A DNA stretch of 49,335 nucleotides from NCBI GenBank assembly GCA_002868905.1, contig PKUA01000051.1, forward strand, positions 1-49,335, given 5' to 3'. The notes beneath the pieces are model-generated. The model ran no database searches. It saw only the letters and a program-made list of their open reading frames with translations, and was not told where the DNA came from. Positions 9,726 to 49,303 of this stretch are shown here, piece by piece. Position 1 is the stretch's first letter. Each line of letters begins with the position of its first letter. Source of the DNA: Desulfuromonas sp. (GTDB lineage: Bacteria; Desulfobacterota; Desulfuromonadia; Desulfuromonadales; Geothermobacteraceae). Both the position numbers and the translations under genes were made by a program.

Positions 9726-11116
9726 AAACATTTGACCTGGCGGTCATCGGTGCCGGGCCGGGTGGCTACGTGGCAGCCATCCGAGCCGCCCAACAGGGTG
9801 CGTGTGTCTGCCTGATCGAGGAGGATCGTGTCGGTGGGACTTGTCTTAACCGGGGGTGTATACCGACCAAGGCCCTCTATTCAACGGCGCGAACCCTGCG
9901 ACAGGTTAACGCTGCCGAGGTTCATGGAATCCATTGTTCTGAGGTGAGTTTCGATTTTCCGACCGCGATGCAGCGCAAAGACAAGGTTGTGTCCCAGTTG
10001 GTCGGTGGGATCGAACAACTGCTCAAAGGCAACCGTGTCGATCTGTTTCGCGGGCAGGCTTTTATCAAGGATCGCGAAAGCATCAGCATCCGTCGCCAGG
10101 GGGTCGTCGGCCACATCAAGGCGAGTAAAATTATCATCGCGACAGGGTCGTTGCCGTTAACCCCGAAGGCCCTCCCGGTTGACGAGAAAAATATTTTGAC
10201 CAGTACCGGTATTCTTGCTATTAAAGAGCTTCCGCGGCATCTGCTGGTCATCGGCGGTGGCTATATAGGTTGTGAGTTTGCAGGGATCTTTGCCTCCTGT
10301 GGCAGCCAAGTCACGGTGGTGGAGGCGCTGCCGCAGATCCTGACGTTCAGTGACCGCCAGGTGGTTCGTGATGTCGAAAAGGGATTTCGTGAACTCGGGG
10401 TCGAAGTTTTGACAGATACCTCGGTGGAACAGCTCAAGGCCACAGGGTCGTCAGTACATGCGACCTTGGCGGGTGGACGGGACCTTGAGGTCGACAAAGC
10501 CCTGGTCGCCATCGGTCGATGTCCGAACAGCGACAACCTCGGCCTTGAGGAGCTCGGTGTGGACCTTGATGATAGAGGCGCGATCAAAGTCGATGATCGA
10601 CTCAGGACCAATATCGAGAATATCTACGCCATCGGTGATGTGACAGGTGGAATCCAGCTCGCCCATGTCGCCTCGTACCAGGCGGAAGTGGCGGTCGCCA
10701 ACATCCTTGGTGGGGATGAAACCGTCGATTACAGGGTTGTGCCGAGCAGCATTTTTACTCATCCCGAAATCGGCCAGGTCGGCATGACCGAGGCTCAATG
10801 CAAGGAAAAGGGGATCGAGGTCGACATTGGCCGTTTCGCCTACCAGGCGTCCAGCAAGGCCTTGTGTGACGGCGAAACTGTCGGTTCGGTCAAACTTATA
10901 GCCGCCCGGGACGACGGGCGGATCCTCGGGGCTCATATCGCCGGGGAAGAGGCATCGACGCTGATCGCCGAAGTGGCGTCGGCCATGGCGGCCGGTATGA
11001 GCGCCAAGAGGTTGGCGGATGTGATTCACGCTCATCCGACCCTGCCGGAGATTATCAAGGAGGCGGCCGAAGACGTTACCGGATTGGCGGTTCACAAAAT
11101 CGGTCGTCGCCGTTAA
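9722..11116 (+). CDS. lpdA: Dihydrolipoyl dehydrogenase (E3)
   Basis: FAD flavoprotein that reoxidises dihydrolipoyl groups of 2-oxoacid dehydrogenases or the glycine cleavage system with NAD+. The 464-residue protein has the FAD loop [11 protein letters not shown] (about 9-19), the redox disulfide in [13 protein letters not shown] (Cys 42 and 47), the NAD loop [11 protein letters not shown] (about 178-188), the second FAD motif YAIGDVTGG and the C-terminal HAHPTLPE with the catalytic His pair. It has no lipoyl domain. It is a likely E3 partner for the E1/E2 genes at 15274-18707, although the two loci are separated by lysC, cimA and a terminator, so E3 probably serves several complexes. ATGA overlap with tsaE. 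Confidence 0.96.
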
Positions 11117-37920: not shown

Positions 37921-39062
37921 TAGATCGTTCCTTTCGCAGCCTCATCTCTTTGCGTTTCGGAAAACTCGTTGCAGCGGATAAAGGGGAGTGAAACAGTTAA
38001 TGTCGTGCCCTTCCCGATTCTGCTGCGCAGTTTGATGAAGCCCCGGTGTTCATTGACTATTTTCTGGCATGTTACCAGCCCCAACCCCGTACCGCTCTCT
38101 TTGCTGGTGAAGAACGGGGTGAAAATCTGTTCCTTAACATCGTCCGGAATCCCCTCACCATTATCCTTCACCTCGACGACGACGAACGGCACAGGTCTTG
38201 AGCCGGGCTGGTTCAGATGGACTTCTGCGCCGATGCGTGAGCGGATGACGACTTCCCCGGATATTGGAGCCGCTTCGGCGGCATTCTTGACCAGGTTGAT
38301 GAACAGCCTGGTTAAAAGATTTTCGTCTCCCTGAATCGCGGGTATGCTCGGATCGAGTTGAAGGTCGAACTGGACCCCTTTGCTCCGGAAAGCTTCTCTC
38401 TGAAACAGGACGATGTCGTTAAGTATCCGGGTGAGGGAGACTTCGCCCCATTCGGCCTGGCGTGGCCGGGAAAGGTTAAGAAGCTCTTCGATGATCCCGT
38501 TGATCCGTTCACTCTCCTTGACCATGACCTCTGTGTATTCGCAGAGCGGGTTTTGCTCGGTCAGTTCCATTTTTAACAGCTGGGCTGCCCCCTTGATGCC
38601 GCCAAGAGGATTCTTGATCTCGTGGGCCAGCCCGGCCGCCAGTGTGCCGAGCATGGAGAGCCTGTCGGCATTACGGACAGCCTCTTCCAGTTCATGAACC
38701 CGCCCCATGTCACGCAGGATGAGGATGGCACCGTCTGGATGGCCGTCCCTGTCAAGCAGGGGAGAGACGGAGGCACTGATCGGCAGCGGATCTGCGAAAT
38801 TCCGTTGCAGCTGAAGCCTTTCATTGTCCGCGATGATCCGACCGTGTGCGGCAGCTTGATGCATCAGGTTGAGAAGCTCGGTCTGGCCGGGGAACAGGTC
38901 GGCTGCCAGTTTCCCCTTGGCTTGTCGCTCCGAATACCCTGTGTATTCCTGGGCAGCGGGATTGAAAACCGTGATCCGTTGTTCGCGGTCGACTACGATG
39001 ACCGCCCGGTCGAGGTTTTCCAGGATGCGTTGATAAAGCTGCTCACCGTGAGCACGTGTCAT
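37920..39062 (-). CDS. ntrB: NtrB-type PAS histidine kinase
   Basis: Cytosolic sensor kinase for the NtrC-like partner. The 380 residues contain no membrane segment: a PAS domain (about 8-120, AVIVVDREQRITVFNPAAQEYTG-like), HisKA with the phospho-His 147 in GLAHEIKNPL, and an ATPase domain with NLVKNAAEA, DNGEGIPDD and GTGLGL. Domain plan and size fit NtrB/GlnL, which responds to PII; PII genes (glnB) are not in the window. ATGA overlap with dusB upstream. Confidence 0.9.
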   Translation of the reverse strand: MTRAHGEQLYQRILENLDRAVIVVDREQRITVFNPAAQEYTGYSERQAKGKLAADLFPGQTELLNLMHQAAAHGRIIADNERLQLQRNFADPLPISASVSPLLDRDGHPDGAILILRDMGRVHELEEAVRNADRLSMLGTLAAGLAHEIKNPLGGIKGAAQLLKMELTEQNPLCEYTEVMVKESERINGIIEELLNLSRPRQAEWGEVSLTRILNDIVLFQREAFRSKGVQFDLQLDPSIPAIQGDENLLTRLFINLVKNAAEAAPISGEVVIRSRIGAEVHLNQPGSRPVPFVVVEVKDNGEGIPDDVKEQIFTPFFTSKESGTGLGLVTCQKIVNEHRGFIKLRSRIGKGTTLTVSLPFIRCNEFSETQRDEAAKGTI

Positions 39063-40036
39063 GACGATACCGTTTCGGCCGCTTCAGTCAGGAAGTCGGT
39101 CAGCAATTCGGAAAGTTCCCGTACGGATCTGCTTGAATTGACCCGTCGTCGGAATTCCCCCGCGCCGGGGAAAGATCGGGCGTACCAGCAAAGATGCTTG
39201 CGCATCTCAAAAAGAGCTTTTCGCTCTCCTCGCAAAGCAAGGTGTCTTTGGAGGTGCTCCCGGGCAACGGCCAATTTCTCCTGGGGAGAGGGGTCCGTTA
39301 CAGGTTCGCCTCGCAGAAGTTGCATCCCCTGCCTGACAAGCCATGGGTTGCCGTAACCACCGCGCCCTATCATCACTGCATCACAGCCGGTCTGGTTCAA
39401 CATGGCCATGATATCATCGGCCTGAAACAGGTCGCCGCTGCCTAGGACGGGAATGGTGACACCCTGTTTTAATTCGGCGATCTGACGCCAGTCAGCTTCT
39501 CCGCCGAAGCCCTGGGAACGGGTCCGAGGATGAAGGGTGATGGCGTCCACTCCTTCGGCTTCGGCAATGCGACCGATTTCAATAAAATTGACGCTGGAGC
39601 TGTCCCATCCGGAGCGAATCTTGATCGTAAGCGGCAGGTCAACCGCTTTCCTCATCGCTTTGAGGATGTCACGAATCCGCATCGGTTCCCGTAAAAGCGC
39701 GCTTCCGGCTCCGCCCCGGACAACTTTGTTGACGGGACAGCCGAAATTGATATCGATCAGGTCTCCGAACGGGGCCACCCGCTTGGCAGCGGTCGCCATG
39801 ACGTCCGGTTCTCCTCCGAACAGTTGAATGCCGAGCGGGCGCTCGCGCGGGTCGCTCTGCAAAAGGTCGAGCGAACCCTGGCCGTTCCTGATAAGCCCGT
39901 TTGCACTGACCATCTCCGTGAAGACCAGTGACGCACCGAACTGCTTCATTGTCAGACGGTAGGGGAGGTCGCTGATGCCAGCCATCGGTGCCAGCACGAT
40001 CGGACCATCAAGTTTTAATCGGTTAATTGAAATCAT
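39059..40036 (-). CDS. dusB: tRNA-dihydrouridine synthase (NifR3/DusB family)
   Basis: FMN enzyme that reduces uridines in the tRNA D-loop with NADPH. The 325 residues begin with PIVLAPMAGISDLPYR, then TEMVSANGL, the catalytic Cys in NFGCPVNKVVRGGAGSAL, KIRSGWD and GRGGYGNPWLV. I chose ATG 40036; a TTG at 40045 adds three residues, but the predicted transcription start near 40048 favours the shorter form. First gene of dusB-ntrB-ntrC. Confidence 0.95.
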   Translation of the reverse strand: MISINRLKLDGPIVLAPMAGISDLPYRLTMKQFGASLVFTEMVSANGLIRNGQGSLDLLQSDPRERPLGIQLFGGEPDVMATAAKRVAPFGDLIDINFGCPVNKVVRGGAGSALLREPMRIRDILKAMRKAVDLPLTIKIRSGWDSSSVNFIEIGRIAEAEGVDAITLHPRTRSQGFGGEADWRQIAELKQGVTIPVLGSGDLFQADDIMAMLNQTGCDAVMIGRGGYGNPWLVRQGMQLLRGEPVTDPSPQEKLAVAREHLQRHLALRGERKALFEMRKHLCWYARSFPGAGEFRRRVNSSRSVRELSELLTDFLTEAAETVSS

Positions 40037-40054
40037 GGTGCTCAAAATTTATGC

Positions 40055-40082: not shown

Positions 40083-40133
40083 GTATATTTTGATGTTCCC
40101 GTGAAGCATGTTCGCATGCCGGGTGGATGGCAT

Positions 40134-40179
40134 ACTGTATACAAATTTTCTTGACAAGTAATGGACTGGTTGCTAGAAC
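40134..40179 (+). promoter_or_regulatory. gltA promoter with GTATAC-centred operator candidate
   Basis: TTGACA (40151-40156), a 17-base spacer and TAGAAC (40174-40179) form a good promoter. ACTGTATACAA at 40134-40144 lies six bases upstream of the -35 box; the same 11 bases occur inverted before sdhC at 45647-45657. The leader to the gltA ATG is about 195 bases, without a recognisable riboswitch. Confidence 0.6.
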
Positions 40180-40379
40180 ATTATTTGGAAAATGAAACCA
40201 CACAAGGTTTAAGCCCGCCGTCGCTCGCCTCCGAATCGCACGCTCTGTGTGCCCGGCCAAACCTAGGCGGCAGGCTGTTATGAAGTTTGATGCAGGGGAA
40301 GGTCGGTTTATTCAAATATGTTTTCTTTGCGGCGGACATCGGGTACGCCGTATGACATTCCAAGATAAGGAGAGAGAGT

Positions 40380-41690
40380 ATGTCCACACTGAAAGAAGTC
40401 CTGCGTAAGAAGATCGAGGAGCATCGTCCCCGTACTACTAAGCTGGTCAAAGAGCACGGCGATGTGAAACTGGGTGACGTCACAATTGCTCAAGCCATCG
40501 GCGGCGCCCGTGGCGTCAAGTGCCTGGTGACTGATATCTCCTACCTTGATCCCTATGAAGGGATCCGGTTCCGCGGTAAGACCATCCCCGAGACTTTCGA
40601 AGCTTTGCCGAAGGTCCCCGGTAGTGAATATCCCTACGTCGAGGGTTTCTGGTACATGCTGTTGACCGGTGACGTGCCGACCAAGGAGCAGACCCTGGAA
40701 GTGGTCGAGGACTGGAAACAGCGCTCCGCCGTTCCTCAGTACGTTATCGACGTCCTCCGCGCCCTGCCGCGTGACAGCCATCCGATGGCCATGTTCTCCG
40801 CCGCTATCGTTGCCATGCAGCGTGATTCGGTCTTCTCCAGTAACTATGCTGCCGGCAAGTTCAACAAGATGACCTGTTGGGAAGATATGTACGAAGATTG
40901 TACTAACCTGATGGCCAAACTCGGTCCGATCGGTGCCTACATCTATCGTATGAAGTATAAGGGTGACACCCACATCGAAGCAGACCCGAATCTGGATATG
41001 GGCGGTCAGTTCGCTCACATGATGGGTCAGTCCGACGAGTACAAGGATGTTGCCCGGATGTACTTCATCCTCCACTCCGACCACGAGTCCGGTAACGTTT
41101 CCGCGCACACCACGCACTTGGTTGCTTCCGCTCTGTCCGATGCATACTACGCATACAGCGCCGGTATCAATGGTCTGGCCGGTCCGCTGCACGGTTTGGC
41201 AAACGAGGAAGTTCTTCGCTGGACCCAGAACTTCATGACCAAACTCGGTGGCGAAGTTCCGACCGAAGAAGGTCTTAAGGAAGCCCTCTGGGCGACCCTC
41301 AACAGCGGTCAGGTTATCCCGGGTTACGGCCACGCCGTCCTGCGTAAGACCGACCCGCGCTACACCTCGCAGCGTGAGTTCTGCATGAATACTCCGGGCC
41401 TCAGAGATTACCCGCTGTTCCAGCTGGTTAAGATGATCTTTGAAGTGGCTCCTGGCGTCCTCACCGAGCATGGCAAGGCGAAGAACCCCTGGCCGAACGT
41501 CGACGCACAGTCCGGCGTCATCCAGTGGTACTACGGCGTCACCCAGTACGAGTTCTACACCGTCCTGTTCGGTATCGGTCGTGCACTCGGCTGCCTCGCC
41601 AACATCACTTGGGACCGCGCTCTCGGTTACGGCATCGAGCGTCCGAAGTCAGTGACCACCGCGATGCTTGAAGAAGCTGCCGGCGCCTAA
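40380..41690 (+). CDS. gltA: Citrate synthase, eukaryote-like class
   Basis: Condenses acetyl-CoA with oxaloacetate at TCA-cycle entry. The 436 residues match mitochondrial enzymes rather than E. coli GltA: ALPRDSHPMAMFSAA, LAGPLHGLANEEV (catalytic His), GYGHAVLRKTDPRY (second His) and PNVDAQSGVIQWYYG (catalytic Asp). This class is documented in Geobacteraceae. AAGGAGAGAG lies just before ATG 40380. Codon use is strongly biased to C-ending preferred codons, as in sdhA, implying high expression. Single gene with its own promoter and terminator. Confidence 0.97.
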   Translation: MSTLKEVLRKKIEEHRPRTTKLVKEHGDVKLGDVTIAQAIGGARGVKCLVTDISYLDPYEGIRFRGKTIPETFEALPKVPGSEYPYVEGFWYMLLTGDVPTKEQTLEVVEDWKQRSAVPQYVIDVLRALPRDSHPMAMFSAAIVAMQRDSVFSSNYAAGKFNKMTCWEDMYEDCTNLMAKLGPIGAYIYRMKYKGDTHIEADPNLDMGGQFAHMMGQSDEYKDVARMYFILHSDHESGNVSAHTTHLVASALSDAYYAYSAGINGLAGPLHGLANEEVLRWTQNFMTKLGGEVPTEEGLKEALWATLNSGQVIPGYGHAVLRKTDPRYTSQREFCMNTPGLRDYPLFQLVKMIFEVAPGVLTEHGKAKNPWPNVDAQSGVIQWYYGVTQYEFYTVLFGIGRALGCLANITWDRALGYGIERPKSVTTAMLEEAAGA

Positions 41691-41715
41691 AGCGTCCAGG
41701 TCGTCAAGGCAAGTC

Positions 41716-41747
41716 AAAAGGGGCACCCATTCGGGTGCCCCTTTTTT
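41716..41747 (+). terminator. Rho-independent terminator of gltA
   Basis: GGGGCACCC (41720-41728) pairs with GGGTGCCCC (41733-41741) around ATTC, extended by A/T arms and ending in TTTTTT. It starts about 26 bases after the stop. Confidence 0.93.
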
Positions 41748-41763
41748 GTTGGTTGGGAGGGCG

Positions 41764-42034
41764 TAGGGGCGCTGCTTGTCGCGTCTACATGGGCAAACAC
41801 GACCGGGTAGAGACGCCCCGGTGGGGCGTCTCAGGCTGCTGCCAACGTAGTATTCAAGCTCAGACATGAAAATCGAATTCTGCCCAAATCTCAGGCCTGG
41901 TTTTTGCCTGCGGTCCAACAGTAAACCCCGGATTTATCAACCCGGGGTTTGTTAATAAACAGAGACGCCCCGGCGGGGCGTCTCTACCTTTGGGGCCGGA
42001 ATTTCGATAAAGACGCAGCAAGCGGCGTCTCTAC
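41764..42034. repeat. Cluster of short palindromic repeats
   Basis: Four related palindromes lie in the gltA-methyltransferase gap: GGCGC TGCTTGTC GCGTC near 41767-41785; GAGACGCCCC-GGT-GGGGCGTCTC at 41810-41832; AGAGACGCCCC-GGC-GGGGCGTCTCT at 41961-41985; AGACGC-AGCAAGCG-GCGTCT at 42011-42030. Several end in the same CTCTAC or GTCTAC trailer. They resemble REP-type or small non-autonomous repeats. No transposase is nearby. Confidence 0.75.
41923..41950. terminator. Hairpin, possible terminator for the methyltransferase gene
   Basis: AAACCCCGG and CCGGGGTTT form a 9-bp perfect stem with a 10-base loop, about 90 bases past the methyltransferase stop on the - strand. No long T-run follows on either strand, so efficiency is uncertain. 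Confidence 0.45.
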
Positions 42035-42039
42035 ATCCA

Positions 42040-42837
42040 TCAATTCGCCTTCTTGTCGTCCCGCGTGGCGAAGATCAGCAACTTACGGTCGGTGTAGCTT
42101 TCAACCTCTCCGGCAAATGTCTCGATCTCGAAATAGTCGTGGACTTTCATCGGAGCATCGATGAAGTACTGATTCAGTTCGGCCAGACGATTTCCGTCAA
42201 GACCCGCGCGACGTGCCCATGGTCCAAACTCATGCGTCTTGGAGAAGATTGCGGTCTCCTGAACGGTGAAATTGGCGTCGGTGACCATCTCGATCCACTC
42301 TTTTTCGGTATGGGCCTGGACATGAGTCGGATCCCGCATCATCTCCATCGATTGGTAAAAGTCTGCAATCTCGGGGTCTTCCGGGAGCAGTGTGTCTATA
42401 ATGGCCATCCGTCCGACGTGGCGACGCAATACGCGGTGGAATTCACGCAGGGCACGGGGTACATCGGTAAAGTGGTGGGGGGCTATTCGGCAGGTGAGCA
42501 TGGTAAACGCCCCGGCCGGAAAGGGGAGGTCCTCAGCGTCTGCTTCCCGAAAGGTTACGTTTTCGACGCCACCCTCTTCGCTGATATACTCCTGGGCTTT
42601 TTTCAGCATTTGCATGGTGAGGTCGGAAGCAACGACGCTACGGACGTGGGGTGCGAAAAACAGGGCGGTATGTCCGCCACCGCAAGCGATATCGAGCACC
42701 AGGTCGTCGGTGGTAGGTTTCAGCAACTCAAGAGCCTTTTCCAGGTCCGGACCACCTGAAAAACCTGAATCTCTGACGTACCCTTCAGCTGTCCGGCTGA
42801 ACTGTTCCCTGACCTTGTTTTTGAAATCTTTCGGCAT
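42040..42837 (-). CDS. Class I SAM-dependent methyltransferase (UbiE/Methyltransf_11 type)
   Basis: A 265-residue single-domain methyltransferase. Motif I is VLDIACGGGHTALFFAP (about 47-63), motif II with acidic VVASDLTMQMLKKA and motif III DAEDLPFPAGAFTMLTCRIAPHHF. The last ~90 residues form a cap without a diagnostic feature. The FSRTAEGYV start resembles menaquinone/ubiquinone C-methylases, but it lacks the conserved UbiE ends, so the substrate is open. Monocistronic; flanked by the repeat cluster and a 400-base gap. Confidence 0.85.
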   Translation of the reverse strand: MPKDFKNKVREQFSRTAEGYVRDSGFSGGPDLEKALELLKPTTDDLVLDIACGGGHTALFFAPHVRSVVASDLTMQMLKKAQEYISEEGGVENVTFREADAEDLPFPAGAFTMLTCRIAPHHFTDVPRALREFHRVLRRHVGRMAIIDTLLPEDPEIADFYQSMEMMRDPTHVQAHTEKEWIEMVTDANFTVQETAIFSKTHEFGPWARRAGLDGNRLAELNQYFIDAPMKVHDYFEIETFAGEVESYTDRKLLIFATRDDKKAN

Positions 42838-43239
42838 AATATGTCTCCAAGCCAGGCTCCCATTATATCACCAACGGTTGTTCCCGGCGGGAGCGGGCAT
42901 GAATATTTGTCCACGTACCATATGGCAGCCAGACCGCCTTGCTGCAGCAAACGTCCCGAGCAATCGGTCGTGGCCGATGTGCAGGTTGTCCGGCGTTTCT
43001 ACATCAACAACCGCACCAAGTATATACAAACTTTTTCAAATTGGTTTTATTTTTTCATCCTGCAGTCATTGATTGAGGAATGAACCTTGCTGAGTTTCGA
43101 CGGGTGTTCAATAAAATGTATCGTAGCGCATGGTTTTCGGTCAGATATCTGTCATGCGTTGTTGCTTGACGGCAAAATGTTATCCCGGCGAACCGGGTTT
43201 GAGTTCGTGAGTTTCTGAATTGAAAGGTTGGAACTGGGT
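42838..43239. other. Gene-free stretch between methyltransferase and permease
   Basis: This divergent region must hold both promoters. I see no convincing -35/-10 pair. GTATATAC at about 43018-43026, next to a T-rich run, is a loose relative of the GTATAC motifs at 40137 and 45649. Nothing else stands out. Confidence 0.25.
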
Positions 43240-44208
43240 ATGATTTTGGAACTGTTGGGGGAACTCTGGCACGAGTTCCTGTATATTCTCCCCTACCTCG
43301 CCATAGGGGTGTTGTTGGAAGCGGTTATCCGTACATTCAAGTGGCATTTGAAAATCAGGCACGCCCTGACGCGCTTCGGTAACTGGTCGATCATTCTGGC
43401 AACGCTTCTCGGGGTGGTCAGTCCTCTTTGTGCCTGCGCCACGTTGCCCCTGGTCATTTCTCTGATGTTGGCCGGTCTGCCGTTGGCACCGGCCATGGCT
43501 CTGCTGGTAACCTCTCCGCTGATGAGCCCTGCTTCCTACTCAATGCTGTCGGGGATGCTCGGTGTTGGCTGGGCGAATACGGTGACCGTCAGTGCCGTGT
43601 TCCTCGGACTGTTTGCCGGCTGGACGACTCACTTCCTGCGAAACAAGGGGTTTGCCGTTGAGTCCGTGTTCCGTCGGGAGTTGCCGAAAGGGGATTTTCA
43701 CGATCCGGACTATCCGGTGGAGGAACTCCGCTGCGAGTGTGGCAAGCAACTCTCCCATCGCGTTAATCGCTGCACTCACAACAAGTTCCTGGTCTTTCTG
43801 GCGAAATTCTGGGAAGGGAGCCTCAAGATCGGCAAATTCGCTCTGATCGGGATGGTGATCGAGGTGTTCGCCTCGTATTTTATCCCGAACGACTGGCTGG
43901 TGGCGCTTCTCTCGGGCGAGGGAATTCTGCCGGTGCTGGGGATTACCTTGGCGACCATTCCGCTTCACCTCCCTCAGGTGACGGCGGCCTCGATGGTGTT
44001 TGGTTTCTATCTGCCCGAACCGGGCCAGCTGATTCCGCTCGGGAAAGGTCCCGGAATCGCCATGCTGGTCGGTGGGCCGGTGACGGCGTTGCCGGTTATG
44101 GGGGTTCTGCTGACCATGTTCAAGCGACGGGTGTTTCTGCTCTACCTGGGCATCTGCGTCTGCGGAACCCTGGTGCTGGCGACGTTGCGTCCGTTGCTGC
44201 CGTTCTGA
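43240..44208 (+). CDS. Permease with CxC core (DUF318/SO_0444 or ArsP-like)
   Basis: A 322-residue membrane protein with about eight to ten helices in two homologous halves. The first half has SPLCACATLPLVISL and LLVTSPLMSPASY; the second has LPQVTAASMVFGF and PGIAMLVGGPVTALP. The CxC in a helix break and the family layout fit the permease group that includes ArsP (organoarsenical efflux) and SO_0444 (proposed metal efflux). A cytosolic loop (about 150-185) carries CECGKQLSHRVNRCTHN, a possible metal site. ATG 43240 with GAAAGG 12 bases upstream; TTG 43228 is the alternative. Substrate unknown; likely a thiophilic metal or organic metalloid (inference). Confidence 0.75.
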   Translation: MILELLGELWHEFLYILPYLAIGVLLEAVIRTFKWHLKIRHALTRFGNWSIILATLLGVVSPLCACATLPLVISLMLAGLPLAPAMALLVTSPLMSPASYSMLSGMLGVGWANTVTVSAVFLGLFAGWTTHFLRNKGFAVESVFRRELPKGDFHDPDYPVEELRCECGKQLSHRVNRCTHNKFLVFLAKFWEGSLKIGKFALIGMVIEVFASYFIPNDWLVALLSGEGILPVLGITLATIPLHLPQVTAASMVFGFYLPEPGQLIPLGKGPGIAMLVGGPVTALPVMGVLLTMFKRRVFLLYLGICVCGTLVLATLRPLLPF

Positions 44209-44334
44209 CCTGAATTGTCACCTCGCAGCGGCTCCGGATCCCTCCATGTGCAACACACAATGCCTTCTCCCTGAGGGAGAGGGTATAGACACTTTCGTTT
44301 CGGGACGTGTTACGAACTTGAAGTGCCTGCAGGC

Positions 44335-45444
44335 TTATTTGAAAAACCCGTATTCCTGCAAAAAAGCCTGCTTGAACTCGGCAAACTCCCCTCGCTCGAT
44401 CGCTTCCCGTGCGTCTGCCATCATCTGCAGGTAGAAGTGGACGTTGTGGATCGCTGCCAGGGTTGCCGAGAGGACTTCGTTCGCGCCGAAGAGATGATGG
44501 AGATAGGCCCGGGTGAAATTCTGGCAGCAGTAGCAGCTGCATGAGGTGTCGACAGGGTAGAAGTCCCTGCGATAGTTTCGGTTGGTCAGACGGATTTTCC
44601 CTCGTCGGGTGAAGAGGGTTGCGCTGCGGGCGTAGCGGGTCGGAATGACGCAGTCGAACATGTCCATCCCACGTTCCACGCTTTCCAGGATGTCCTCGGG
44701 AAGGCCGACCCCCATCAGGTAGCGCGGTTTGTGCTCCGGCAGGAACGGTTCGGTGAAGTCGACCACCTGCTTGAGCAGCTCAAGCCCCTCGCCGACGCTG
44801 ACCCCACCGATGGCGTAACCGGGAAAGTCCAGCGCCGTCAACTGCTCGGCGCAACTCCGTCGCAGGTCCGCATAAACGCTCCCCTGAACAATACCGAACA
44901 GTGCTTGGTCGTTTCGTTTGTGGGCCTTGAGGCAGGCTTCCGCCCAGCGCAGGGTCTTGGCGATCGATTTTTTGGCGTAGTCGTGGCTGGCGGGGTAGGG
45001 GATGCATTCGTCGAAGGCCATGATGATGTCGGCGCCGAGGCTGTTTTCGATGGCGATCGCCTCCTTCGGCCCGAGAAAAGTCTGTTTCCCATTCACCTCG
45101 TTACGAAAGGTGACACCGTCCTCGCCGATCTCCTTTTTCGGCAGGGAGAAGACCTGGAATCCGCCGCTGTCGGTCAGGATCGGTTTGTGCCAGTGCATGA
45201 AGTTATGCAGGCCGCCGGCCTTTTCGATCAAACCTTCACCCGGCTTGAGGTGCAGATGATAGGTGTTGGAGAGGACGATCTGGGCGCCTGTCGCCTCCAC
45301 CTGGTCCGGAGTCATCGCTTTCAGGGCGGCATGGGTCCCGACCGGCATGAAGATCGGGGTTTCTATGGCGCCGTGGGGTGTCGTGACGCGGCCACGCCGG
45401 GCGCGTGTCGTATTGTCTTTACTGAGCAGTTCAAACTGGAACAT
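44335..45444 (-). CDS. tgt: tRNA-guanine transglycosylase
   Basis: Exchanges G34 for preQ1 in tRNAs with GUN anticodons on the way to queuosine. The 369 residues show LSNTYHLHLKPG, the nucleophile region DSGGFQVFSL, MAFDECIPYP, YAIGGVSVGEG, the catalytic DCVIPTRYARSATLFTRRG and the zinc site DTSCSCYCC...H. All are intact. AAGGAC lies before ATG 45444. It stands alone; queA and yajC, frequent partners, are not seen. Confidence 0.97.
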   Translation of the reverse strand: MFQFELLSKDNTTRARRGRVTTPHGAIETPIFMPVGTHAALKAMTPDQVEATGAQIVLSNTYHLHLKPGEGLIEKAGGLHNFMHWHKPILTDSGGFQVFSLPKKEIGEDGVTFRNEVNGKQTFLGPKEAIAIENSLGADIIMAFDECIPYPASHDYAKKSIAKTLRWAEACLKAHKRNDQALFGIVQGSVYADLRRSCAEQLTALDFPGYAIGGVSVGEGLELLKQVVDFTEPFLPEHKPRYLMGVGLPEDILESVERGMDMFDCVIPTRYARSATLFTRRGKIRLTNRNYRRDFYPVDTSCSCYCCQNFTRAYLHHLFGANEVLSATLAAIHNVHFYLQMMADAREAIERGEFAEFKQAFLQEYGFFK

Positions 45445-45963
45445 GCGTTATGTCCTTCATTGATGGTTTGGTTGCAGTCAAAAGGCCTTTGTAAGCCGGG
45501 CTCCACATACCATAGCAATAGCTGGCGGTGAATACCATCTGTATATTTTTGATACAACTGTTTGGAACAAGGCCGTTTCTTATCTTTTCCGTATGGAAAA
45601 AACTGGATTTATCATAATAAAAACAATGGGTTTTGCTGTTGCAACATTGTATACAGTGTGCATATTTTCGGTTGACATGTATACGTGTGGAATGGTATGT
45701 AGTGCCTGCGTTATTCAGTCTGGATAAAACTTGCTTTGTTACTGTTCGGCGCGGCTTTCCAACCGGGTTGAACACTTCTTGAAACAGGGGGTACATGCCT
45801 ATGGAGTCCGTCAATGAATGGAGAGGTCCACCCGCACCCTGTCGCCCGTTTTTGATTCAACGTCGTGGCAATACCCTGGTAAAGCCTGACGGCTGAATCT
45901 CACTGTTTTATTGGCGGTTCATCCCCTGATTATTTTTTCGTACTACAACTCGAGGGAAAAAAA
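45445..45963 (+). promoter_or_regulatory. sdhC upstream region: promoter and GTATAC motifs
   Basis: TTGTATACAGT (45647-45657) is the exact inverse of the motif at gltA. TTGACA (45672-45677) and, 18 bases on, TATGTA (45696-45701) form a probable promoter, and a second GTATAC (ATGTATACGTG, 45678-45688) sits between the boxes where a bound repressor would block polymerase. The leader is about 250 bases and shows no clear fold. The first ~140 bases belong to the tgt upstream region on the other strand. Confidence 0.55.
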
Positions 45964-46629
45964 ATGAACATGTTGACTAGTTCGGTTGGCAAGAAAATCA
46001 TGATGGCGGTAACCGGGGTGATCCTGGTTCTGTTCATCATCGGCCATGTGATCGGTAACATGACGATCTTCGTCGGCCCTGACGGCATCAACGCCTACGC
46101 CGTCCACCTGCGCGATCTCGGTCCCCTGCTCTGGCTGGTGCGCCTGGTCATGCTCTCCATCTTCCTGTTCCACGTTTATCTCGGGGTCAGCCTGACCCTG
46201 GAGAACAAAGCGGCCCGCCCGGTCGGTTACAACCAGAAAACGGACCTGGTCACCGGCTTCGCAGCCCAGACCATGTGGGTCAGCGGTCTTGTCCTGCTCG
46301 CGTTCGTGGTTTACCACGTTCTGCATTTCACCCTGCATGTCGGTGTCGACAACGTCGGCGGCCTGATCGACGCGGCCGGACGCTTCGACGTCTACACCAT
46401 GGTGGTGCAGGGCTTCCACAAGGCGATCAACACCATCTTTTACGTGGTGGCGATGGCCTTCTTGTTTCTGCATGTGAGCCACGGCTTCCAGAGCTTCTGG
46501 CAGAGCCTCGGCTTGAACAATGAGCGGACCCAGCCGAAGTTCCAGATCGTTGGCAAACTCGTATCCCTGGTTGTGGCAGCCGGTTTTGTTTCTATCCCGG
46601 TTATCGCCATGCTCATCCTCAAAGCTTAG
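45964..46629 (+). CDS. sdhC: Succinate dehydrogenase/fumarate reductase cytochrome b subunit
   Basis: Membrane anchor that binds two b hemes and menaquinone. The 221 residues have five hydrophobic segments (about 12-32, 57-77, 98-120, 148-172 and 195-216) with His ligands in [27 protein letters not shown] and LHVSHGF, the Wolinella/Bacillus diheme type. No separate SdhD is present, as expected. In Geobacter the homologous FrdCAB acts both as fumarate reductase and as succinate dehydrogenase. CGAGGGA precedes the ATG. It is 11 bases before sdhA. Confidence 0.93.
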
Positions 46630-46640
46630 GGGGTAACACT

Positions 46641-48556
<1,916 letters not shown>

Positions 48557-48557
<1 letters not shown>

Positions 48558-49303
48558 TGAATCTCAAACTTTACGTATGGCGCCAGGAGAGTGCGACCGC
48601 ACCTGGTCGCATGGAGCAGTACGAGGCGAAGAACGTCAGCCCTGACATGTCTTTCCTCGAGATGCTCGATGAAGTTAACGAAGACCTGATCAATACTGGA
48701 AAAGAGCCGATCGTTTTTGACCATGACTGCCGCGAAGGGATCTGCGGTATGTGTTCCCAGGTCATCAACGGCATCGCGCATGGACCGGAAGAAGAGATCA
48801 CCGTCTGCCAGTTGCACATGCGACGTTTCAAGGACGGCGACACCATCTTCATCGAGCCGTGGCGTGCCAAGGCGTTCCCGGTGCTGAAAGACCTGATGGT
48901 CGATCGCGGTGCCCTCGACCGGATCATCCAGGCCTACGGTTACACCTCCGCTCATACCGGCGGTGTGCCCGACGGCAACGCGATCACGATTTCCAAGTCC
49001 AAGGCCGATCCGTCCATGGACGCGGCGGCCTGCATCGGCTGCGGTGCCTGTGTCGCCGCCTGCCCGAACGCCTCGGCTATGCTGTTCACCGCCGCCAAGG
49101 TGACCCACCTCGGGCTGCTGCCGCAGGGTCGTGAAGAGGCGGCCCGCCGGGTCAAGGCGATGGTCGCTCAGCACGACAAGGAAGGGTTCGGCAACTGCAC
49201 CAATCACTACGAGTGCGAAGCCGCCTGCCCGAAGGGGGTCAAGACCGCCTTTATCGCATACATGAACCGCGAGTTGGTCAAGGCGCTGCCGAAGGCTGAC
49301 TGA
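48557..49303 (+). CDS. sdhB: Succinate dehydrogenase/fumarate reductase iron-sulfur subunit
   Basis: Electron-transfer subunit between FAD and the hemes. The 248 residues have the [2Fe-2S] ligands in [12 protein letters not shown] (about 56-67) with the fourth Cys in VCQLH, the [4Fe-4S] motif [13 protein letters not shown] and the [3Fe-4S] set [14 protein letters not shown]. All cluster ligands are present. With sdhC and sdhA it completes the three-gene complex; the window ends 32 bases later without a visible terminator. Confidence 0.96.

Follow-up and report, generated by a model that had tools for sequence, protein, structure and literature searches.

The 49,335-nucleotide stretch analysed here (the window) is part of the genome of a Desulfuromonas sp. 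(contig PKUA01000051.1 of assembly GCA_002868905.1) and carries the genes for citrate synthase (gltA) and succinate dehydrogenase (sdhCAB). Geobacter and Desulfuromonas relatives oxidise acetate via the citric acid cycle and pass the electrons to metals or electrodes. A first-pass annotation of the window had pointed to an 11-base motif shared by the gltA and sdhC promoters and proposed one regulator of acetate oxidation. We consider it highly likely that this motif is the operator of a single, autoregulated transcription factor with a GntR-type and an FCD domain, and with a regulon in central metabolism. The proposal of one regulator is strongly supported, as the site also precedes icd, mdh, acnB, nuoA and atp genes and recurs in relatives.

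A 17-base-pair palindrome upstream of gltA and sdhC

The exact 11-mer, ACTGTATACAA, is present as first described, at 40134-40144 on the plus strand before gltA and, inverted, at 45647-45657 on the minus strand before sdhC; there is no further copy in the window. The unit that contains it is a 17-base-pair palindrome, TTGTATAC-W-GTATACAA, matched at 14 of 16 positions at gltA (40128-40144) and 13 of 16 at sdhC (45647-45663), while the remaining 17-mers of the window reach 11 of 16 at most. In 60 dinucleotide shuffles of the window, 17-mers with at least 13 matches occurred at a mean of 0.03 and none of the 60 contained two 11-mers. The 17-mer was preferred over a 10-base-pair core, TTGTATACAA, because the core shows no excess over the reversed control (35 against 34 in the genome, with one mismatch). 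The features concerned, with promoters as predicted, are:

40128-40144, no strand assigned: gltA operator TGGCATACTGTATACAA, 14 of 16 matches, centre at 40136, about −50 from the predicted start, 19.2 bits in the profile of the 17-mer
40134-40144, plus strand: 11-mer ACTGTATACAA, right part of the gltA operator
40151-40179, plus strand: predicted gltA promoter, TTGACA-17-TAGAAC, with TGC before the −10 box (extended −10 like)
40380-41690, plus strand: gltA, citrate (Si)-synthase (NF007128, 780.9 bits, cut-off 344)
45647-45663, no strand assigned: sdhC operator TTGTATACAGTGTGCAT, 13 of 16 matches, centre at 45655, about −53 from the predicted start, 12.9 bits in the same profile
45672-45701, plus strand: predicted sdhC promoter, TTGACA-18-TATGTA, less certain, with a weak −10 box
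45679-45684, no strand assigned: second GTATAC, within the sdhC spacer, no palindrome of the 17-mer kind
45964-49303, plus strand: sdhC (45964-46629), sdhA (46641-48557) and sdhB (48557-49303), all three above NCBIfam cut-offs
39059-40045, minus strand: divergent tRNA-dihydrouridine synthase-like open reading frame, named from reading its translation

The six-base spacing between the gltA 11-mer and the −35 box, TTGACA at 40151-40156, was confirmed. The profile's two other matches in the window (6.3 and 4.8 bits) fall at the same two places, the gltA and sdhC operators; neither window site was in the training set of the profile, which did include gltA sites of relatives. The hexamer GTATAC occurs six times in the window (9858, 12305, 14701, 40137, 45649 and 45679) against 2.23 expected, a count reached in 4 of 100 shuffles, and up to E 10 the profile has no match at those at 9858, 12305 and 14701. 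As had been noted, the predicted −35 and −10 boxes of sdhC enclose a second GTATAC; its candidacy as an operator is not supported, with the best 17-mer there at 10 of 16 or less. The dihydrouridine-synthase-like frame and the gltA operator have an intergenic region in common, and this frame could also be affected.

Sites across the genome

The genome that holds the window measures 3.30 Mb in 84 contigs. The exact 11-mer is found five times in it, before gltA, sdhC, a class I fumarase gene, glyQ and a gene of the GntR family, and the 17-mer with up to two mismatches seven times, against one in the reversed control. A profile scan yielded 11 distinct sites at E ≤ 0.5. They precede the GntR gene, icd, mdh, glyQ, gltA, the atpI/atpB operon, an NADPH-oxidoreductase-like gene, acnB, the atp b'/atpF operon, nuoA and sdhC; apart from those before glyQ and the regulator gene, all lie upstream of genes of central metabolism. 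The perfect copy of the palindrome is the site before the gene of the GntR/FCD regulator. Rather than being scattered, the sites are enriched at promoters of genes of related function; those before icd, mdh, acnB, nuoA and the atp genes, together with a half-conserved one at fumarase, lie where the first-pass annotation had suggested looking.

Regarding the identities of these targets, mdh and glyQ score above an NCBIfam cut-off, as atpB does with one model. The icd, acnB and fumarase genes are partial frames, scoring under the full-length NCBIfam cut-offs, and the best match of nuoA is a nuoA model, at 137.2 bits and below its cut-off of 155. For atpI and atpF no NCBIfam match was obtained at 1e-30, their names coming from context and reading; a b'-like frame lies directly 3' of the atpF-operon site. 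The NADPH-oxidoreductase-like gene is similar to that for the small subunit of glutamate synthase, and presumably also resembles SfrAB of Geobacter. A site with three mismatches at position 30520 of contig C24 was dropped, having neither a convincing gene nor a profile match.

In four distant relatives (G052, G033, G015 and G027), all 26 sites with up to two mismatches were examined with their surroundings, using tblastn with proteins of the window's genome. The sites recur at the same genes: 24 of the 26 precede the regulator gene (4), icd (4), acnB (3), sdhC (3), nuoA (3), the NADPH-oxidoreductase-like gene (3), the atp b'/atpF operon (2, with atpF itself further on from the site), gltA (1) and glyQ (1). 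Because sdhC was beside gltA in none of 16 related-genome stretches, conservation of the sdhC site rests on three of these distant genomes, G052, G015 and G033. Two of the 26 sites, L296 and L307, have no assigned target. L296 (G033, contig C1, 1814617-1814633) is a palindrome of 14 of 16, with a response-regulator-like frame and a small frame with several CxxCH motifs nearby on the minus strand.

The regulator and its own promoter

The regulator gene is located outside the window, at 108935-109639 of contig C38 on the minus strand, and the perfect palindrome stands 40 bases upstream of its likely TTG start. From this start, the protein has 235 residues, with an N-terminal GntR winged helix (PF00392, 70.4 bits, cut-off 27) and a C-terminal FCD domain (PF07729, 98.3 bits, cut-off 24.3). 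It falls below the cut-off of all 25 NCBIfam families listed, out of 28 matched. An assignment as PdhR was rejected, with 57.7 bits against the cut-off of 330 of the NCBIfam PdhR model. Operators of the FadR/FCD group of GntR regulators have the consensus TNGTN..ACNA, and the operator described here shares the GT...AC core form over 175 predicted sites; these were chosen at 14 or more matches of 16, and the operator profile is therefore sharpened.

An orthologue of the regulator is present in 126 of 146 genomes of the class (E ≤ 1e-40). Promoters of 50 of these orthologues (the 30 best matches and 20 picked across families) were examined, and all 50 contain the palindrome with at least 13 of 16 matches. 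Its centre is at −16 of the predicted core promoter in 49 and at −14 in the remaining one, and in most of them the right half of the operator coincides with the −10 box of a predicted TTGACA-16-TACAAT promoter. Such a fusion of operator and predicted core promoter is the arrangement expected of an autorepressor.

The FCD domain resembles that of TM0439 of Thermotoga maritima (3fms), the two sequences matching with an E-value of 7.3e-23. TM0439 has three metal histidines in this domain, whereas the regulator keeps two (H133 and H177 of the regulator alignment); the position of the presumed third is occupied by Asn in 16, Thr in 8 (including the window's genome) and Ala in 1 of 25 aligned members. 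This third position was placed by a histidine of 7xp0, which we take to be a ligand. An extra invariant histidine, H129, precedes H133 by four residues. The ligand pocket of the FCD domain is possibly altered.

The sites follow the regulator gene

In a profile search that covered the 20 genomes without an orthologue, 21 further genomes of one family and the window's own genome, orthologues had E-values below 1e-70 and other family members above 1e-34, a gap with one exception, an orthologue split in two pieces. The 126 genomes with the regulator contain 838 sites with up to two mismatches against 42 in the reversed control (means of 6.65 and 0.33), and the 20 genomes without it contain 19 (mean 0.95, median 0, control mean 0.20). 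At least three sites are present in 125 of the 126 genomes with the regulator and in 3 of the 20 without; because the genomes are kin, P values for this co-occurrence overstate independence. A gltA site of at least 12 of 16 was found in 49 of 50 regulator-bearing genomes examined versus 4 of 18 without the regulator.

Losses of the regulator are spread over seven families. In G062 and G106 it is missing from between its usual neighbours, and one and no sites, respectively, are left. Three genomes of family f5 without the regulator (G021, G067 and G093; loci L193, L194 and L195) have the 10-base-pair TTGTATACAA at the place of the operator, before the gltA −35 box; possibly, this bare core reflects rewiring or decay. 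In the phylum, 113 of 297 genomes, the window's class included, match the regulator at E ≤ 1e-40, many of these matches being more distant ones. Outside the class, 15 of 18 loci with orthologues of 48-54% identity (L335-L352) have the palindrome with at least 12 of 16 matches.

Operator position and a proposed mechanism

Relative to predicted starts, the operator is centred at −9 of icd in five of five genomes, at −9 or −7 of acnB in four of four and at −9 of mdh in the window's genome, while at glyQ it lies just downstream of the start, at +18 and +16 in two genomes. These positions fit repression by occlusion, to the extent that the predicted promoters are correct. Weaker predictions in the window's genome place it at −16 of atpI, −14 of the atpF operon, −20 of fumarase and +8 of the NADPH-oxidoreductase-like gene. 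A different geometry is observed at gltA, where the operator is at −49 to −53 in 30 of 36 regulator-bearing genomes examined in the window's order; in the window's genome nuoA (−54) and sdhC (−53) have it at a similar distance. Elsewhere, the best-scoring predictions put the sdhC operator at −51 in G033, −31 in G052 and −4 in G015. In the Geobacterales-like families f20 to f22, 6 of 13 loci have the gltA operator at +12 to +17 and the other seven have it at various places, with none at −49 to −53, and the nuoA operator is at +10 to +14 in three of three. We regard it as a tentative and rather doubtful idea that the sign of control is opposite in the sister orders, gltA and nuoA being activated in the window's order, where the operator stands upstream of a conserved TTGACA promoter, and repressed in f20 to f22, where it often lies shortly past the predicted start.

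Binding, the sign of control and the existence and nature of a ligand are what we infer in the following scheme. A dimer of the regulator would bind TTGTATAC-W-GTATACAA and repress its own gene, since there the operator merges with the predicted core promoter and its right half doubles as the −10 box. The same steric reading could apply to icd, mdh and acnB, with the operator over the −10 box, and to glyQ, with the operator just past the predicted start. At gltA, sdhC and nuoA, where the operator is at about −50 to −54 beside the −35 box, the protein could either activate or hinder the polymerase. The FCD domain would sense one metabolic signal, to which complex I, ATP synthase and the greater part of the citric acid cycle would thereby be coupled.

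Relation to known regulators

In G013 and G058, the regulator gene is near selA- and glnS-like genes, and in G013 also near ispD- and ispF-like ones (names by reading). Genes of the selA, glnS, ispD and ispF types presumably have nearby locus numbers in Geobacter sulfurreducens. The papers named below are cited for the passages that concern the regulators in question. GSU3370 of G. sulfurreducens is a GntR-family protein said to bind the gltA promoter, by a mechanism of which little is known (PMC10599522, a 2023 paper citing Ueki and Lovley 2010). The regulator described here is likewise of the GntR family and is probably its orthologue.

HgtR (GSU3364) is a hydrogen-induced repressor with gltA, atpG (F0 b' subunit) and nuoA among its targets (PMC7726332); its control of gltA is also mentioned in PMC7894505, and that of acetate metabolism genes in PMC8691401. 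An enhancer-binding-protein gene is located upstream of GSU3364, according to a passage in a paper that cites the HgtR work. HgtR thus resembles the regulon described here in having gltA, nuoA and the ATP synthase b'-subunit gene as targets; it differs in being hydrogen-induced and the product of a gene other than GSU3370.

Among regulators of more distant organisms, PdhR of Shewanellaceae also belongs to the GntR family and has an expanded regulon with gltA and sdh, but it is a pyruvate regulator, and the regulon described here adds mdh, icd, acnB, nuo and atp (PMC5343134). The main text of PMC5343134 contains neither 'Geobacter' nor 'Desulfuromonad'. CitO of Enterococcus faecalis is an FCD protein too, which carries metal with N-H-H as proposed ligands, but it activates genes for citrate use (PMC4746285). 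NanR of Escherichia coli is a GntR-type repressor with a GTATA-containing operator; its operator has three GGTATA repeats instead of a single 17-base-pair palindrome, and its effector is sialic acid (PMC8012715).

A search of the open-licence literature, supplements lying outside it, returned no description of the operator or the whole regulon, and only the passage on GSU3370 bore on it. The relevant parts of PMC13194489, PMC11934962 and PMC6520446 contain nothing on this regulator, and among the matches listed for the motif letters there was no relevant paper. As far as could be seen, the operator is new, and so are the extent, distribution and geometry of the regulon.

Points of discord and alternative explanations

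Several observations weigh against a single regulator acting on a single operator. In the window's genome, the excess of 17-mers with up to three mismatches is small (12 against 7 in the reversed control), and the fumarase site, TTGTATACAGTTGCACT, has one conserved half and yields no profile match up to E 10. Of 230 first-look candidates, 150 were scored in the profile scan; 4 of the 44 training sites (those of gntR, icd, mdh and glyQ) came from this genome and are not independent matches there. The promoters are consensus predictions, ranked by self-set scores, with unmapped start sites. G072 has the regulator and no gltA site, second gltA copies in G028 and G068 are without one, and G121, a relative of G062 and G106, has the regulator and a single site. 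Conversely, G071, G026, G092 and G133 keep the gltA site and have 6, 2, 3 and 6 sites, respectively, with no regulator orthologue at E ≤ 1e-15. In G026, G092 and G133 (L355, L354 and L353), the usual neighbours are side by side at the syntenic locus with no regulator gene between them, which suggests a genuine loss with operators left in place; in G071 the neighbour gene of the regulator was not found.

These regulator-less genomes bear on the idea that two proteins use one palindrome, the GntR regulator and a competing or replacing one (HgtR or another), for instance where the GntR gene has been lost. G133 and G071, with six sites each, a gltA site and no regulator, would be accounted for in this way, and so would the three of three regulator-less f5 genomes with the shorter TTGTATACAA before the gltA −35 box. 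Against this, 14 of 18 regulator-less genomes examined have no gltA site of at least 12 of 16, and G026, G092 and G133 may be recent losses in which the sites are still decaying; we think a second protein unlikely. The sites could also belong to HgtR, which the first-pass annotation had brought up as a possible owner of the motif, the GntR gene being merely another target. The target lists of both overlap at gltA, nuoA and the F0 b'-subunit gene, HgtR and GSU3370 are close by locus number, and a target gene, too, can carry a site. However, it would then be hard to see why all 50 regulator promoters have the site, 49 of them at a fixed autoregulatory place, and why the number of sites tracks the GntR gene across genomes; furthermore, it is the GntR protein GSU3370 that PMC10599522, in the passage cited above, names as binding the gltA promoter. 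HgtR is not the best candidate, and its ownership of the motif seems improbable.

An AT-rich palindrome that recurs near promoters by chance, devoid of regulatory meaning, would agree with the behaviour of the shorter motifs: the 11-mer alone, allowing two mismatches, does not stand out from chance within the window (6 found, 3.38 expected), and the 10-base-pair core equals its control. This reading is contradicted by the 17-mer, the counts of which exceed controls both in the window's genome and over the 126 genomes, and by the functional coherence of the targets; we give it practically no credence.

Implications for acetate oxidation

An operator belonging to one GntR/FCD regulator is thus the explanation we prefer. 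The domain tests place the regulator in the GntR superfamily, and its predicted mode of action at several promoters resembles that of known repressors of this group. In many Geobacter and Desulfuromonas relatives, the targets predicted for it span most of the citric acid cycle as well as NADH dehydrogenase and ATP synthase. If one switch governs most of the cycle's steps along with complex I and ATP synthase, as predicted, control of the rate of acetate oxidation becomes directly testable, and the regulator gene would be a single target for deletion or tuning in electrode-respiring strains. Its loss in several families, sometimes with operators left behind, offers a natural experiment in the decay of a regulon.

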